64,000 nucleotides of DNA from Siniperca chuatsi (Eukaryota; Chordata; Actinopteri; Centrarchiformes; Sinipercidae), in the NCBI RefSeq assembly GCF_020085105.1, contig NC_058044.1, forward strand, positions 25,727,206 to 25,791,205, given 5' to 3'. This document shows, one piece after another, positions 346 through 53,092 of this stretch. Position numbers and translations under genes: made by a program. The notes beneath the pieces were generated by a model. It had not been told where the DNA came from and ran no database searches. It worked only from the letters and a program-made list of their open reading frames with translations. Within the stretch, counting starts at the first letter, position 1; every line of letters begins with the position of its first letter.

Positions 346-732
346 ATCTGTTGCTAATTTGACACTCATTAAGTGACATAATCCTGGGGAAAAAAAGACT
401 CCAAATATTTCCATTTCCACAAGTGTGGGCAGTAAAAATACTTGAAGTCCCTGCACATCCACACAGGTGTTTTTAATTACCCTGGTTCAGTAGAACTTTG
501 GTCAGGTTGGAGCTGGGTGCAGCCATGCAGGGAATTGCATGCTGTCACCAAATAATATGCACCAATAAGAAAGGTGTAAATTTTCCTGGCCTAACAGGCG
601 CAGCAAAACTGACAAGACAGTGCGGGAGCTGTCAATCAAGCACAGTCTGTGAACACACAGTCCTGAGGAGAGCTGCCATCTCATTATGACCTGACTGTAT
701 GCTACCCTGTCATTGTACTTCCTCATACTCAC

Positions 733-1602
733 CAGAAGAGGGCTCCAGCAGATACATGAGGTGACCATGATGCCGACCAGCTGCACCACCATCTCTATGT
801 CATGGGACTTGGCCGAGTGATGGGAGCCGGGCTGCCTCCTGAGCCGAGCGAGCACCAGCGTCAGTCCACTGATGGTGTTACACACCAGCGCCACAGCTAG
901 CGAGGTCAGACCTAGTCCAGAGAACAGCACCACAAACGCCACATCCACCTCCTCAGTGTCACTGAGCACTTTAATGAAACACCAGGTCCCTGGGTCCTGA
1001 TAGGTGTAAGAGCCCAGCTGGAAGCACGGCAGCATGGCCACACACAGAGCTGCCAGCAAGATGACAGACAGGCAGATCTTTGTGCGGGTTTTGGTGACTA
1101 GGGAAGAGTGCAGCAGCGGCTTAGTGACGCCCAGGCAGCGCTCAGCAGCCATGGCACAGCCCATGAAGAGTGGGCACAGGCCAAAGAACACCATGCTGCC
1201 ACCCAGGAACTGACACATCCTATCAGAAGAGTAGAAGTCCTCGGTTTGCACACCTCCAGAGAGGTAGAGTCGGAGAACCAGGGCACCAGGGATCACGTGG
1301 CCAATGAAATCTGTGACCACCAGTGAAGTGGCAAACAGAAGGAATGTGGCTTTGGTGCGCCGGCGCTGGAGGGAGTAGGCATTGACCAGGATGAAGAGGG
1401 CCACGATGTTGGAGATGATGCCCAGTGTCATGGACAATATGACGACAATGATGCCACTGGTGGTGGGCTGCACCAAGGTGAGGTTCCCCTGCTGCGACAG
1501 CCCTTCTACCATCACCCTGGCCTCCACCTTCCCTCCACTGTCATTAGAGAAAGGAGGGAGAAGCGGGGAGGCTGAGGAGTTGTAGTGGCTCAAAGCTAAC
1601 AT
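733..1602 (-). CDS. ptger1: Prostaglandin E2 receptor EP1-like, first coding exon (partial gene)
   Basis: A rhodopsin-class prostanoid receptor that senses prostaglandin E2 at the plasma membrane; EP1 receptors couple to calcium signalling. The exon encodes 290 residues in phase 0, from an extracellular N-terminus with NxS/T sites (NSS, NDS, NLT) through TM1-TM6. Visible signatures are HVIPGALVLRLY in TM2, a CQFLGG/FFGLCPL stretch in TM3 followed by ERCLGV in place of E/DRY, the prostanoid ECL2 motif GTWCF, and CICWSPLL in TM6. The TM2, TM3 and ECL2 segments match EP1 better than other EP subtypes. The exon ends at a CTTCTG|GTGAGT donor within TM6, where prostanoid receptor genes typically have an intron. 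TM7 and the C-tail must lie beyond the left edge. The start was chosen because the upstream acceptor (CTTGCAG, exon from 1643) puts this ATG 41 nt into the exon, and the upstream in-frame methionine would lie in the intron. Which teleost ptger1 paralogue it is cannot be decided. Confidence 0.87.
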
Positions 1603-1631
1603 CACTGAACCTTGAAGGTCATGAGGTCCAT
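1602..1631 (-). other. uORF overlapping the ptger1 start (TGATG)
   Basis: A nine-codon reading frame begins with ATG at 1631-1629 and ends with TGA at 1604-1602. Its stop overlaps the presumed ptger1 start by one base (TGATG). It lies on the same exon, downstream of the acceptor at 1645-1644, so it would be in the mature mRNA. A second ATG in its frame follows three codons in. Translation of it is inference. Confidence 0.45.
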
Positions 1632-1643
1632 AGTTAAGGGAGG

Positions 1644-2956
1644 CTGCAAGAGAGAGAAGATGACATTTGTATAGAGCTGATAAGCTGTGGATCACCTAAA
1701 GTAAAATACTGTTGATTTGATGATTTGATGAAAAGAATGATTAAAAAACAATAAAAGTTACACATACATACAGGTGAAAATCAAAGGAAAAACCTGACTA
1801 CATGAGTGAAGAAACATAACGAATGCAGATGTTTCCATTAAAGGGCACAAGAGGTCACTGAATGCTTTGATGCAAAAGAACATGATATGAATCATATGCT
1901 ATGGCCGCAGTCACCAGATCTCAACCTAAATGAACATATGGGAGATTTTGGAGCGACAAGTTAGACAGCGCTCTCCACCACCGTCATCAAAACACCAAAT
2001 AAAGGAATATCATTTGAAAGAATGGTGTTCACTCCCTCCACACACTTGGAGAATCTAAACAGCTGAAGCTGTTCTGGCAGGTCGTGGCGGCCCAACACCA
2101 TACTACGAAACTTTGTGTTTTCTTTTCATTTAATTTGTAACCCATATGTAGGCTATGCTTTCTTTGTACCTTTTAAGATAAAGATTTAGGGAGGTCTAAT
2201 AACTAAAAACATTAAACATATACTGCTACTAATTCTTCATAGATTACTAAAGATCTGACTAGCCCTCGTGATGGAGAGTGGACTCACTGATCACTCAGGT
2301 TTAGTTTGGCTGGAGGTCAAACAGGACAGTCCTCCCAGCAACACACCAACAAAAAGCAATGTATTAAAACAAATTAAAGCAATATGGTATATTGTTTGAC
2401 GTCTTTCATCATAATCATATAGATGGATTTTTAATATCAAGAAAACATGCTTTTGTTGTCTAAACTGACTGTACAATGAGTTCTTAATTTTTTGAGAATA
2501 TCAACAGCTGACAAAGTTTCAGATCTGATTATAATGGAGTCCAATGTGTTGTATATCAACTAATGGAAACCTAATAGCTGCTTTGCTGTACCTAAACAGA
2601 TCACCTTATATGTAGATGTCAGAATATGGTGTCTGATTTAAAAAATAAACTTTCTGTATTTCCCATGCCTCACTGAACACTTTGTCAGTTGTGAAAGAAA
2701 TGCCATTAGATGGTGGATTTGCACTACATCGCACCCCTTTGCAGAATGTTGTGCAGTTTTGCAGTGTGTAAGAAAGTATGAACAGGAAAATTATGATCAA
2801 AGTAATAAAACAATATAAATGTTATTTATCAAATCATTGTCAGATATTTAAACAAAGATCCATCCAATTTTAAATTTTCTTCTAGTGTTCCCTTAGGAGA
2901 AAAAGTCTACCTCCTTTTTTATTTATTATTATATTTAAAATGAAGACATGGCTCAC
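1644..2956 (-). other. Intron between ptger1 5'UTR exon and coding exon
   Basis: Inferred intron with a GTGAGC donor at 2956-2951 and a pyrimidine-rich CTCTCTCTTGCAG acceptor ending at 1644. It contains a decayed Tc1/mariner-like fragment and otherwise anonymous A+T-rich sequence. Confidence 0.5.
1900..2125 (+). pseudogene. Tc1/mariner-like transposase fragment
   Basis: The plus strand reads a degenerate SPDLN-x-x-E-H motif at about 1913-1940, which corresponds to the SPDLNPIEHLW region around the last acidic residue of the DDE catalytic domain in Tc1-like transposases. Frameshifts and stops follow within 40 bp, and a tail typical of these elements runs to about 2120. It is a dead remnant with no terminal repeats seen. 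Confidence 0.6.
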
Positions 2957-40159: not shown

Positions 40160-43001
<2,842 letters not shown>

Positions 43002-47107: not shown

Positions 47108-47836
47108 ATGTCCTCTGGAAATGCAAAGATTGGCCAGCCTGCCCCAGACTTCACAGCCACAGCTGTAGTGGATGGACAGTTCAAGGACATCAAGCTGTCA
47201 GACTACAGAGGTAAGAGTGTTATTTCTCATAGGCTTCATACACCAATAGTAATAGAGGTGTTTGCAGTTTTTTTTAATATCGTCAGTCTAACTTTGTATG
47301 TACAGTATATGTAGACCCACTCTTCTTGAGTAACAACAACTTTTGGGGGTCATATCTAATGTGTGTTGACTAGAATCAATGCTTGTCTCATTTTCTTCCT
47401 TCTGTACTCTTCAGGGAAGTATGTGGTCTTCTTCTTCTACCCCCTGGACTTCACATTTGTGTGTCCCACTGAGATCGTGGCTTTCAGCGACAGGGCAGAG
47501 GAGTTCCGCAGTATCGGCTGTGAGGTTATCGGCTGCTCCGTAGACTCTCATTTCAGTCACTTGGCATGGTGAGAATGTCTGCTGACTTGACAGGAAATCG
47601 TGGCTTGAGTTTTACTCTAATTTGTGTGGTTGTATGCAGTGGGAACTTGATTACTTAAATGGTCCTGAGCCAACAGTTTTGAATTAACATCCTCTCAGCC
47701 AACATGTGACGTAAGAAGAGCAGCTTTAACAAAAGTTTTCTTTGTCATTATTTTGCAGTGAACTGTATTGAGGGTTGAAACTAAATATATTAATACATAA
47801 ATAATTGTATAATTAAATGAAGAAATGCTTCAATGA

Positions 47837-47872
<36 letters not shown>

Positions 47873-49888
47873 AACCTACAATGTATAATAATATATATAT
47901 AAATAAATAAAAAATAATAATAATTTTTATTTTTTTTTTAAAAAAAAGCTTAATTGTCACCATCAATAAATTACAAATTAAATGATATATTTGCACGCGC
48001 TGAGGAGAAGCTGGCAGAGCGGAGGTCTGCTGGTAGCAGGAAGAGAGACTACTGCAATTGTATCAATTACTCACTAGGCAGCTAACACACACACACACAC
48101 ACAGAATTTTTTTTTTTTACTTACAACTAAGAAAATGTATTTTAATTATTAATGGTGACAAATAAGCATTAAATGACACAATTATTTATATATTTAGTTT
48201 CGGCCCTTAAAACCCTCCATAAAACTGCCTGTTGTACTGTTGTTTTTTTTTGGGGGGGGGGGATTAATTTCAACTTTTGTATTTTTTTTTTCTTGTCACA
48301 ACAGATCTACAGCAACATGGGTGTCTCAACAAATATCATACAAAACAATTTCACTATGAAAAAGCTATTGGACTTTCTTAGGAGCTTTGAGCTACTTAGC
48401 TGTCAGATGCCTAATTATCAGATCGGGACTCCATAGAGATCGTCAGGTCATTAAATGACTGAGATCGAAATGTCCCTAGTTTGCGATTTCTAAGTACTCG
48501 TTAATAGTGAGGGTTTTTGGAAGATCTGAAACAACACCCACCCCAGTTTATCAGTTTATCTCCTGTCACTGTGCTTCTTCTGCATAGTCTTGATAAGGTT
48601 TGAGTCCTGATATACTGATAAGAGGTAACGGTCTCCTCTTAATATGAAATTTGAGTGGGATAATGAATTACCCAGCAGCAATTCTGGGTGTAGTGCATTG
48701 CTTTAGGGTTTAAATATTTATATTTGACAAATTTTGTGAGTCTTGGCTCTGTTGGAGCACGTTCTGATGTCATTGTAGGTTTTAAGAAGCATCTTCACTC
48801 GTGTTGCATTAATTGTATTTTTATTTTAGTTTTTTTTTAAAGTTAGCTCTTAGCTTTCCAAAAGGCGTTTGCAGCATGAGTTCAATTGTTTGGTCCACCC
48901 CTACCATATAGACAAATTGTTTTCTTCTGTTTAGGTACTTTTGAAGGCTACTTTGTCCTCTGTCTTTAAAACTAAAGTGATGTTACAATAAGTACGACTA
49001 CATGCACTGAATCATGATGAGGATTTTAATTTTTGTAAAATATTTAAGTACAGTATATCAAAATATGTCCTATGTGCACTTACACAGTAATTTGGTTTTG
49101 ATTTGCTAGTTATATTGTAACTTTTATCCTACAGGATCAACACACCAAGGAAGCAGGGAGGTCTGGGTAGTATGAAAATCCCCCTTGTGGCAGATCTCAC
49201 CAAGACAATCTCTAGAGACTACGGTGTGCTGAAGGAGGACGACGGCATCGCGTACAGGTCAGCCAGACTGCTTATGTCATTTATATAAAAGGTTCTATCT
49301 GAAAGGCCAGTAGTTACTGTCTGGTGGGAGCTTGGCAGAATACTCACTCTGCTCTTTAATTACTACTATAATGACGAAGTAAGCACTGACACACTAACCG
49401 AGTGTAGAGAGACTAAAGGATGTAGATGTAACAATTTTATGCAATACTGTAATCTTAATTTGTGCCTCTCAGGGGTCTATTTGTGATTGATGACAAGGGC
49501 ATCTTGAGGCAGATCACCATCAATGACTTGCCTGTGGGGCGCTCTGTGGATGAGACTCTGCGTCTGGTCCAGGCCTTCATGCACACTGACAAACATGGAG
49601 AAGGTGAGCAAATTTTAAATGCAGAAATGAGTTTCCCTTTAGCTGTAAGCTGACGTGAACTTAGTTACTTTGTGGACATAGCCTTGCATTATTAGTTTAC
49701 CCTCCCAGGTATTTACACATGCACTTTGTCCCCAGGGTATACAACGTTCAATGCGTGTCGCTTAGGCCTTGTGGTAAACTTTGTCCCTTCTCCCTCTCCA
49801 CACAGTGTGCCCTGCTGGCTGGAAACCTGGGAGCGACACCATCATCCCAGACGTTGAGAAGAGCAAAGACTTCTTCTCCAAGCAGTAA
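47108..49888 (+). CDS. prdx2: Peroxiredoxin-2, typical 2-Cys type
   Basis: A cytosolic thioredoxin-dependent peroxidase that reduces hydrogen peroxide and organic hydroperoxides. Five coding exons join in frame: 47108-47210, 47415-47568, 49135-49257, 49473-49603 and 49806-49888, giving 197 aa, the usual length. The peroxidatic cysteine is C51 in FTFVCPTE and the resolving cysteine is C172 in VCPAGW. GGLG at 94-97 and the C-terminal helix, the two elements that make eukaryotic 2-Cys peroxiredoxins sensitive to overoxidation, are present, but the C-terminal YF motif is FF (193-194). Additional cysteines are C70 and C75. The N-terminus [15 protein letters not shown] and the lack of a targeting peptide favour Prdx2 over Prdx3/4; Prdx1 is less likely given the tail DFFSKQ. 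The gene is convergent with junb, as in mammals. A possible ATTAAA signal lies at 50169-50174. Confidence 0.95.
47569..49134 (+). other. prdx2: Long prdx2 intron with simple repeats
   Basis: Holds an AT-repeat at about 47840-47867, A/T-only low-complexity sequence to 47950, an (AC)n run at 48084-48103, and a 10-12-base G run near 48251-48262. No gene or structured RNA was recognised. Confidence 0.7.
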
Positions 49889-50407
49889 ATGTGAAGGTCT
49901 TCTAGCTGACTTTGTAACTTGAGCACTTGCCTTCAGATAAGAGGTGTCCCTGTGAAGCAGTATCTCATGGTGTCCAATGTTTAAACCCCCACAAAATTTC
50001 AGAATTTAAGATAAATCCTTTGTTGCAAATCTTATCTTTGTATGTCCAGTGTACAATTGGTGGGGCAACCTCATAGTCTCAAGCACTGAAAGTATAGTTT
50101 TGTTCCTTTTTTCAGAAAAAAAGTAGATATTTTTCCTTGCTGTCATTAATAATTTGTTACCATCTTTATTAAAAGAGTGGGAAAAATTGTGACATAACTG
50201 TTTTGTCTGACAAATGAAACAGGACTGCTGTACATTGTGAACTGATTCCACTGTGACCTCTAGGTGGAGCCATAAATCTTCCTAAATCTGTTCTTGGTGC
50301 CTACTAGTTTAGTGCCTTTACAACTTGAAAGTATTGTGCCAACAGACATTTTTGGAATTAACTTGTTGTATCAGTCCTCGGCCCTGGGCCTGGCAGAGGA
50401 TCTGAGT

Positions 50408-50427
50408 ACGTCACAAAGCTGTGACGT
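50408..50427. promoter_or_regulatory. Inverted pair of CRE half-sites
   Basis: ACGTCACA at 50408-50415 and TGTGACGT at 50420-50427 are perfect inverted copies separated by four bases. Each contains a TGACGT/ACGTCA core of the type bound by CREB/ATF and AP-1-related bZIP factors. It lies about 520 bp after the prdx2 stop. Confidence 0.5.
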
Positions 50428-50885
50428 CTTTGTTAATGTTGGAGTTATTGCTGTGTTTGACTCAGCTCAACAACCCGGCACTGCAGTTCATTGGGAAATA
50501 TTGGATTGTTGCATATGATTTAACAGACCTGCATGACTGTCCCAGATACGTCAATCTATATGTGACCACAGATGTGTCACTGTTTAAGGAGAAGAGTTAT
50601 CCATATGGATCTCACTATTTTGATGACACTTGAGTAACCAGTCCATGTCTTATGTACTGAAGTAAAAACTGGGATATATGTAATCACGCTTCAGATAAAA
50701 TCAAGATTTTGTCTCAAATTCTTTAGTTTGTTACCTCTACCCCAATATTTTTCTGCCAGCTTTTTTTTTAAAGCATTAATTCTTGTCATTTCAAACTGGC
50801 TCTTTTACCCATTACAGACTATTCTGCATGTTTGTCTGGAACTTTTCAACCATTTTCCTGAACTAGTGTTCTCACGACTTGTTTT

Positions 50886-51135
50886 GGGAAACTGAAAGCC
50901 GAATGGGGAAACTCCCTTACCTCGAATAAACCACTCATTGACAAACCTCTTCATTGACACACACACATTGTGGTGTGAAGGGGAGAGCGCAGCATTTCTG
51001 ACGGGCAATGTAGGAGGGAGTTCCCGGAAACCTTTTCGTGATGTGACGTTTGCCAGCAGAATTCACCATATATGGACTGACGTATGTACGTCAATACGGA
51101 AACAATCCTACGCTGGGACGTCTCTAACGTCAAGC
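50886..51135. promoter_or_regulatory. Candidate inducible enhancer downstream of junb
   Basis: Consensus motifs seen in order: an ISRE-type GAAACTGAAA (50888-50897), a kappaB-type GGGAAACTCC (50906-50915), a STAT site TTCCCGGAA (51021-51029), TGACGT (51044-51049), a perfect CArG/SRE box CCATATATGG (51066-51075), TGACGTA and TACGTCA facing each other just after it (about 51078-51093), and ACGTCA (51127-51132). Mammalian JunB is known to have a growth-factor-responsive SRE plus CRE enhancer in its 3' flank, and this cluster is about 540-780 bp beyond the junb stop codon. An AATAAA at 50925-50930 means the left part could also be prdx2 3' UTR. Function is inference. Confidence 0.65.
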
Positions 51136-51199: not shown

Positions 51200-51668
51200 A
51201 CGAGAATTAATGAGAATTCCTGTGATAATTCTTAAGAGGTGACATTTTTTTAAAATAGCTACACAACCTCAGTAAGAAACAACACCACATTTCTCGGTTT
51301 CATAATTTCATTTACTTAAATATATACTGTACAAGTGTAAAAAAAACAACAAAAAAAAAACAAGCTCATCAGGCTCAGCCTGACAAACACATAATTTACA
51401 TAAGAATGAATCACAAATAGCAATTAAAGTAAAATGTAAACAGGCAACGCCAAGACGACACTTTCAACTAGCCTACTTGTTCAAAAATGCCCGAAGTGTT
51501 TTAGTCTTGTATTATTTCTGTGTAGGCTACTTTTCTTTCAGCCAAAAAAAAAATAAAAATAAATCAATGATCCAGTTCTCTCATACAGACAATGTAGCCT
51601 ATAAAGACATTGTTCATTGTGTTGTCAGTGCAGTTCTTGTCCAGTGTTTTTAAAAGTGCATTGTTTCT
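51200..51668 (-). other. junb: junb 3' UTR
   Basis: A+T-rich sequence downstream of the stop with ATTTA words on the minus strand (for example in GATTTATTTTTATTT near 51564-51550), as expected of an unstable immediate-early mRNA. No clear AATAAA was found on this strand before about 51200, so the end is approximate. Confidence 0.5.
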
Positions 51669-52661
51669 TCAATAAGACTTTACTTTGGGCGCTAACATGA
51701 GTTGACAGCCACTGCTCACGTGTGTCATGACTTTCTGTTTGAGTTGGGCCACCTGCTCTCGCAGTAGAGAAGCCGTGGTCGACAGTCCGGCGTTGTCTGT
51801 TTTCAACACTTTGACCTTGTCCTCCAGACGAGAGATGCGCTCCAGCTTGCGCCTCCGACACTTTGAGGCTGCGAGCCGGTTCCTCAGCCGCTTGCGCTCC
51901 GCTTTGATCCGCTCCTGGTTCTCCATATCGATGGGGGACATCGGCGGAGACCCACTGTCGCTGCTCTGCATGTCGGGGACTGTCTGAGGCTCCTCTTTCA
52001 GCCCGCCGTATCGGTGCGAGTGGATGCCGGCACCGGCCAGGGGGTGCTGGAAATGGTGAGATCCGTGCGCAACGGCCTGGGGATGCTGGTGGTACTGGTG
52101 GTGCGGCATGTAGCTGATAGTGGTGGAAGGATAGCTGGCTGCAGAGGAAAGGCTGGGGTTCGTGGTACATCCGCCCAGGGTGGTGTACTCGAGTTCTGGC
52201 TGCATGGTTGAGCCGAACACCGAGGCTGGAGCCGAGCAGGCAACCCCACCGGTACCGATGGACACGTTTGGAGGAGCCATCTGGTTCATCTTGTGTAGGT
52301 CGTCCAGCGCTTTAACAAAACCGTCAGCAAAGCCCTCCTGCTCCTCTGTGATCCCGCGGTTGTAGAGGAAATGGGTAGGTGTCGGCGTTGTAGTGATGAC
52401 CCCGTTACTGTTCTGGATGATCAGTCGCTCCAGTTCAGGAGAGGCGAGCTTCAGGGAGCCCACGTCCGCCGTCCCCGGTGAATAGAAATCACTGTCGGCG
52501 CGCAGGTGCTGTGACTTGAAGTTTGAGTTCCGATAAGACTCGGGGAAGTTCAAGTTCATATTCTGCTTTAGCAGCTTGTAGTCTGGCAGGGCTGCGCCTG
52601 GATGGCCATAAGCAGAGAGAAACGAGTCGTCATAAAAAGGCTGTTCCATTATTGTGGACAT
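51669..52661 (-). CDS. junb: Transcription factor JunB (AP-1 subunit)
   Basis: A single-exon bZIP gene of 330 aa, intronless like all Jun genes. The product dimerises with Fos, ATF and other Jun proteins in the nucleus and binds TGA(G/C)TCA and CRE sites. Visible features are the conserved N-terminus [10 protein letters not shown], a JNK-docking-like DYKLLKQ segment (about 27-33), the Jun homology block [12 protein letters not shown] and [13 protein letters not shown] (70-97), [21 protein letters not shown] (106-126), an EEPQTVP-x-SPP-MSP phospho-site region (223-243), the basic region [20 protein letters not shown] (257-275, redox cysteine C268), and a leucine zipper with L279, L286, L293, L300 and L307. 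EEPQTVP and the histidine-rich middle part fit JunB rather than c-Jun or JunD. The first of two nearby methionines was taken as start because it matches the JunB N-terminus. Whether it is junba or junbb is open. Confidence 0.95.
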
Positions 52662-52991
52662 ATTTCAAATCAGACAGTCAAATACAAGAGTGCGCTGCAA
52701 AGATGCTGCTTGGACACCGAGGCTTCAGTGTCCCAATTGATTCAATCTCCGGCACAATGTCCCGCTGTATTATTATACTGAAGATCAAATCTATCAAAAA
52801 CAGAGCAAAACTTCCAAAATAGTGTACTGTACCAAGTCGTCGATTTGTACCTTTAGTTGGATTCAAAGCGAAGTCCAGTGACTAATTCAGATGTTTTCAA
52901 TCCACTCGTGAGTAGGACAGTCTTTTCTGCTATGAATCTGAGATCCACTTCTGTTTCCTCTTTAGTGACATGCGGTCGTCGCGCTCAGCTA

Positions 52992-53092
52992 TATTTATAT
53001 GATCCGATTCTACAAGCGCTCCAACCAGCGTGCTGATTGGTTGTTTCCTCCGTGGTCCCCGCCTCCGGGATGTCAGATCGACTCGATGACGT
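52992..53092 (-). promoter_or_regulatory. junb: junb promoter: TATA, CCAAT, GC box, CRE
   Basis: On the minus strand, from distal to proximal: a CRE half-site ACGTCA (53092-53087), a GC box GGAGGCGGGG (53066-53057), a CCAAT box (53040-53036) and a TATA-like ATATAAATA (53000-52992). Transcription would start near 52965, giving a leader of about 300 nt, usual for Jun genes. Confidence 0.7.

Follow-up and report, generated by a model that had tools for sequence, protein, structure and literature searches.

Induction of mammalian JunB proceeds through an enhancer located downstream of the gene, in which a CRE is paired with an SRE. A related arrangement is known from c-fos, in which the SRE has an adjacent FAP/CRE-like site and lies upstream of the promoter. 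The primary papers on the mouse junB element are reportedly Perez-Albuerne 1993, Brown 1995, Schmidt 2007 and Lopez-Rovira 2000, and the Brown 1995 paper is said, by its title, to deal with an APRF/NF-kappaB site downstream of mouse junB. In the available parts of PMC3799436 the mouse element, named enhancer E, is described as a stretch of ~200 bp located 200 bp beyond the poly(A) signal; it has four kappaB sites, and three of these contribute. Enhancer E is required for LPS induction of junb, and is looped to the junb promoter with polymerase paused there; the enhancer E construct spans +2026 to +2237 (PMC3799436). Inducible binding of p65 at enhancer E on LPS was also reported (PMC2833204, in part), and junB was found to respond to serum through a downstream CArG box (PMC516031, in part). 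In the mouse primer table the codons of a primer antisense to junb at +4704 read GSDTIKP (PMC3799436), which is taken as the last exon of Prdx2.

The genome of Siniperca chuatsi was searched as 719 Mb in 65 contigs, and a stretch of 64 kb of contig C3 was analyzed (C3:25727206-25791205, hereafter the window). A junb gene was recognized at 51669-52661 on the minus strand, as a single-exon coding sequence of 330 amino acids with Pfam Jun and bZIP matches. Its product contains ALDDLHKMN, the peptide encoded by the mouse JunB primers (PMC3799436). Convergent with junb, the exons of a peroxiredoxin gene lie in pieces at 47108-49888 on the plus strand, with an approximate start. The joined exons have near-equal scores with Prdx1 and Prdx2 chains, the top match being a Prdx1; they run without net gap against Prdx2 chains, whereas there is one residue more in the Prdx1 chains shown. 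The gene was named prdx2 because of this gap-free run and its place beside junb. The stretch 50886-51135, a candidate junb downstream enhancer, sits between the two genes, ~1 kb beyond the prdx2 stop. A genome search with the 301 bp around it gave one match, itself, although the absence of other matches is no proof of rarity. Viral contigs and prokaryote genome contigs were also searched with the JunB protein for vertebrate relatives, and none was confirmed. Elsewhere in the window, a long open frame at 505-1695 (minus strand) presumably encodes a prostaglandin-receptor-type GPCR, and pieces at 41858-42825 (plus strand), which we take to belong to a HIPK-type kinase, are broken up by a long tandem repeat that codes for SIYL units.

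Seven matches, all of them jun-family loci, were found when the JunB protein was compared with its own genome. The closest relative of the window junb is located at C21:17940900-17941877 and shares 76% protein identity. This identity, together with papers naming two zebrafish junb genes (PMC9922731, in part), suggests that the C21 gene is the second copy from the teleost duplication. The two copies have similar words upstream of the ATG, namely a CRE at -430, CCAAT at -379 and TATA at -338 in the window (about 52999-53091) versus -429, -382 and -335 on C21. The same 12-mer, TATTTAAGTAAA, follows the coding end at +350 in the window and at +470 on C21; its AGTAAA is the probable junb poly(A) signal (51311-51322, minus strand). 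Likeness of the two copies both before the ATG and past the poly(A) signal argues against the C21 gene being a retrocopy. No AATAAA or ATTAAA was found in either copy from the stop to beyond +1500. Because no canonical AATAAA lies between stop and interval, a longer junb 3' UTR running through the interval is possible. The CArG box of each copy lies past the putative AGTAAA signal, by 241 bp in the window and by 312 bp on C21. From the TATA box of the window junb (52992-52999, minus strand) a start site near 52969 is predicted, which places the interval at about +1834 to +2083. In neither copy does a CArG box occur in the 700 bp before the ATG, so that a perfect site for SRF input would need to lie downstream.

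The initial annotation had reported an ISRE, a kappaB site, a STAT site, a perfect CArG box and four CRE half-sites within these 250 bp, and a motif scan located all of them where they had been placed. The ISRE GAAACTGAAA is found at 50888-50897 (plus strand), followed by a first kappaB site at 50906-50916 that reads as GGGAAACTCC on the plus strand (50906-50915) and as GGGAGTTTCC on the minus strand. A second kappaB site, additional to the one of the initial annotation, is GGGAGTTCCC at 51016-51025 (plus strand); it overlaps by 5 bp with the STAT site TTCCCGGAA at 51021-51029, which is also overlapped by the ETS word CCGGAAA at 51024-51030. The window has three kappaB matches, which come from two sites since one was read on each strand, and all of them fall in the interval. 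The perfect CArG box CCATATATGG occupies 51066-51075, and two bases after it, at 51078-51093, the facing half-sites TGACGTA-TG-TACGTCA are present, again as had been claimed. The TGACGT half-sites thus are those at 51044-51049 (plus), 51078 (plus), 51088 (minus) and 51127-51132 (minus), with a fifth TGACG at 50999; a full TGACGTMA site does not occur within 50886-51135, and neither do TATA, CCAAT or GGGCGG words. The CpG observed/expected ratio is 0.89 in the interval versus 0.37 in the window, a value reached by 1.9% of 250-bp windows. A possible second module in the same intergenic region (50408-50464) consists of a palindromic CRE pair at 50408-50427 (ACGTCA...TGACGT) and an AP-1 word TGACTCA at 50458-50464. 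A 21-nt partial repeat (76%) was also observed at 50535-50555 and 51075-51095, 540 bp apart, with TACGTCAAT at the end of each copy.

That such a cluster exceeds random expectation, as had been asserted from reading the sequence, was borne out in several ways. All five motif kinds (ISRE, kappaB, STAT, CArG and CRE half-site) come together within 250 bp only at 50886-51135 in the 64 kb, and no second 250-bp stretch of the window has even four of them. In dinucleotide shuffles of the 64 kb the five kinds never met in 250 bp (0/300), and at least four kinds did so once (1/300). These shuffles understate chance somewhat, since the real window is richer in CArG (10 vs a shuffle mean of 5.2), TGACG (67 vs 43.5) and ISRE words (12 vs 4.4). 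No facing CRE pair stood after a CArG box in any of 1500 shuffles; a kappaB/STAT overlap of the form found here arose in 13, the palindromic CRE pair count of the window (at 50408 and 51078) was matched in 4, and a CArG box with TGACG within 12 bp arose in 137. Because the original motif list had been chosen after looking, a dictionary of 60 consensus words was also used, 30 of them signal-response words and the other 30 lineage or general ones. The stretch 50883-51132 ranked first with a score of 57.2, the next anywhere in the 64 kb reaching 27.9, and the interval lacked every word of the lineage or general half. By signal-word score, 50304-50553 in the same intergenic region ranked third in the 64 kb.

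Compared with the known systems, the fish interval resembles the SRE-plus-CRE pairing of the mammalian enhancer, by having a CArG box with CRE half-sites, none of them a full TGACGTMA. As in the c-fos SRE, a CArG box stands directly beside a CREB/ATF-type site in a setting of immediate-early control; the c-fos element, however, is located upstream of its promoter, whereas the fish element follows its gene and includes STAT/kappaB sites as well. The combination of STAT and kappaB sites downstream of junb is also like the APRF/NF-kappaB site that Brown 1995 reportedly names in its title. The kappaB and STAT sites of the fish fit this known design and are no addition to it, because mouse enhancer E has kappaB sites and because of that title. 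The earlier view that kappaB was added in fish was therefore mistaken, as the mouse enhancer has four such sites versus two in the fish interval (PMC3799436). Both elements are about 200-250 bp long, contain several kappaB sites, and lie downstream of a single-exon junb, the mouse one beyond the poly(A) signal and the fish one beyond a predicted signal. The position between convergent junb and prdx2, which had been said to be that of mammals, agrees with the mouse layout (PMC3799436), and the SRE part of the claimed SRE-plus-CRE pairing agrees with the downstream CArG box of mammalian junB (PMC516031). Set against the published description of the mouse element, the fish interval differs by its ISRE and its facing CRE pair. 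No mention of an ISRE in the mammalian downstream element was found in the available parts of PMC3799436, PMC2833204 and PMC516031. A literature search, judged from its listings, yielded no recognized description of a fish junb downstream element, and the parts seen of PMC4789231, PMC5513048 and PMC2785842 contain nothing on a junb downstream element.

The 3' flank of the C21 junb provided a further comparison. It harbours CCATATACGG, with one mismatch to the CArG consensus, at +788, CGTCA at +816, the STAT site TTCTGGGAA at +832 and a reverse kappaB site at +836; the corresponding words in the window are a CArG box at +597, CGTCA at +624, STAT at +643 and kappaB at +647. Order and strand of the four words are equal in both copies, with spacings of 28/16/4 bp on C21 vs 27/19/4 bp in the window. 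The second kappaB site of the interval thus has a C21 counterpart with equal offset to the STAT site, and the half-site at 51044-51049 (CGTCA in the sense of junb) is kept as well. In the C21 copy the CArG box is degenerate and the facing CRE pair is gone. None of the five other jun loci had the arrangement in its 2.6-kb 3' flank, where single words only occurred; in the 3' flank of the jun gene on C13 at 21.08 Mb, for example, a CArG and a kappaB word lie almost 1 kb apart. With one CArG mismatch allowed, 478 kb of control strand contained no instance of the motif order, and under slightly narrower limits it occurred in 0/300 shuffles of the C21 flank, the limits having been fixed after viewing both junb copies. 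Farther downstream of the C21 junb, a reverse kappaB word GGGACTTTCC at +1501 and an AP-1 word TGAGTCA at +1529 were observed, 28 bp apart.

Alignment of the two flanks depended on the scoring used. When a core of 137 bp was aligned locally to the C21 flank, none of 158 genome control pieces reached its score under two scorings; with strict gap costs 62 of the 158 did, and the top match lay elsewhere in the C21 flank. For the 250-bp query the three scorings gave 4, 2 and 129 of 158 controls. The two-copy alignment is thus significant only with lenient gap costs, in two of the three scorings for the core. In an earlier run the score was reached by shuffles in 7 and 9 of 500 and by real controls in 2/146. 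The C21 counterpart was missed by BLASTN and by a genome DNA search with the window interval, and among the loci compared by BLASTN no other good match to the interval was obtained. A MAFFT alignment of the two core stretches brought the CArG and STAT/kappaB words into line, and the CGTCA words did not line up. When 100 kb of C21 (within ~50 kb of its junb) was compared with 134 kb of C3, no shared genes were recognized except junb. Numerous short matches, spread over several frames or places, were repeat-like.

Taken together, the motifs, their excess over chance, the position and content shared with mouse enhancer E, the colinear, degenerate counterpart on C21 and the single genome match suggest that 50886-51135 corresponds in fish to the mammalian JunB downstream (E) enhancer and helps to make junb an immediate-early gene. 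We put the probability of this reading at roughly 0.78, and the candidate enhancer is probably real and old; the age of more than 400 million years suggested by the initial annotation is tentative. A true inducible enhancer may instead have arisen or been rebuilt in fishes, with sites that do not descend from those of the mammalian ancestor. The second copy already shows turnover, as it is missing the facing CRE pair and a perfect CArG box; nevertheless, we consider such rebuilding rather unlikely, because place and factor set equal those of mammals, the core order is kept between the two fish copies, and the 1995 title reportedly suggests a STAT/kappaB overlap in mouse as well. It is improbable that the interval serves prdx2, or is the promoter of an unrecognized RNA, and does not act as a junb enhancer. 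Its distance of ~1 kb from the prdx2 stop would suit that role, and CREB-type sites and high CpG are also usual for promoters, but the TATA, CCAAT and GGGCGG words are lacking, an Rfam search of the interval gave no match, and the C21 junb keeps the core while no prdx match was present on its contig among the 19 matches listed.

A chance cluster of short words, noticed since many motifs were sought, is very improbable. Single pairings are not rare, a CArG box and a kappaB site falling within 250 bp in 23/300 shuffles and a CArG box with at least three TGACG in 4/300; the full motif set, however, was never reproduced, the interval leads the 60-word dictionary by a factor of two, and the core order recurs after the C21 junb and not after the five other jun genes. 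Hardly credible is an origin of the interval as part of a dispersed repeat with motifs unrelated to junb. Transposons near the zebrafish junb genes do carry response motifs, and the elements common to regeneration genes are transposons (PMC9922731, in part); against this, the interval matched the genome once, at itself, which as said is no proof of rarity, and no other good match was present in the loci compared. Because of this single match the interval was not taken for one of the transposon elements of PMC9922731.

If 50886-51135 is the counterpart of enhancer E, the CArG box, bound by SRF and ETS partners, and the adjoining half-sites, bound by CREB/ATF, would deliver growth-factor, calcium and cAMP input. 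STAT3 and NF-kappaB may occupy the overlapping STAT/kappaB site jointly or in competition, the overlap suggesting alternative occupation under cytokine or microbial signals; together with the first kappaB site and the ISRE this site would bring in cytokine and microbial input. The element is predicted to contact the junb promoter, like the mouse loop, and this contact may release paused polymerase.

A more tentative proposal, which we hold to be possible but short of even odds, is that the two junb genes have divided an ancestral downstream enhancer, that the STAT/kappaB composite is its most constrained and perhaps oldest part, and that the element predates the split between ray-finned and lobe-finned fishes. 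The prdx2-linked copy would then have the perfect SRE, the facing CRE pair, a second kappaB site and the ISRE, for growth-factor, cAMP and interferon input. On C21 there would remain a weakened SRE, a single CRE half-site and the STAT/kappaB composite, whose 4-bp offset is fixed.

In mammals, the induction of JunB by way of an enhancer downstream of the gene has been well studied. In fish, junb copies have been linked to fin regeneration (PMC9922731, in part). Should the fish element work alike, vertebrates have probably long had SRE, CRE, STAT and kappaB sites arranged in this way behind junb, and fish would offer a whole-animal system for removing each input. The two differently decayed copies of the putative junb enhancer may in that case be regarded as a natural mutant series.
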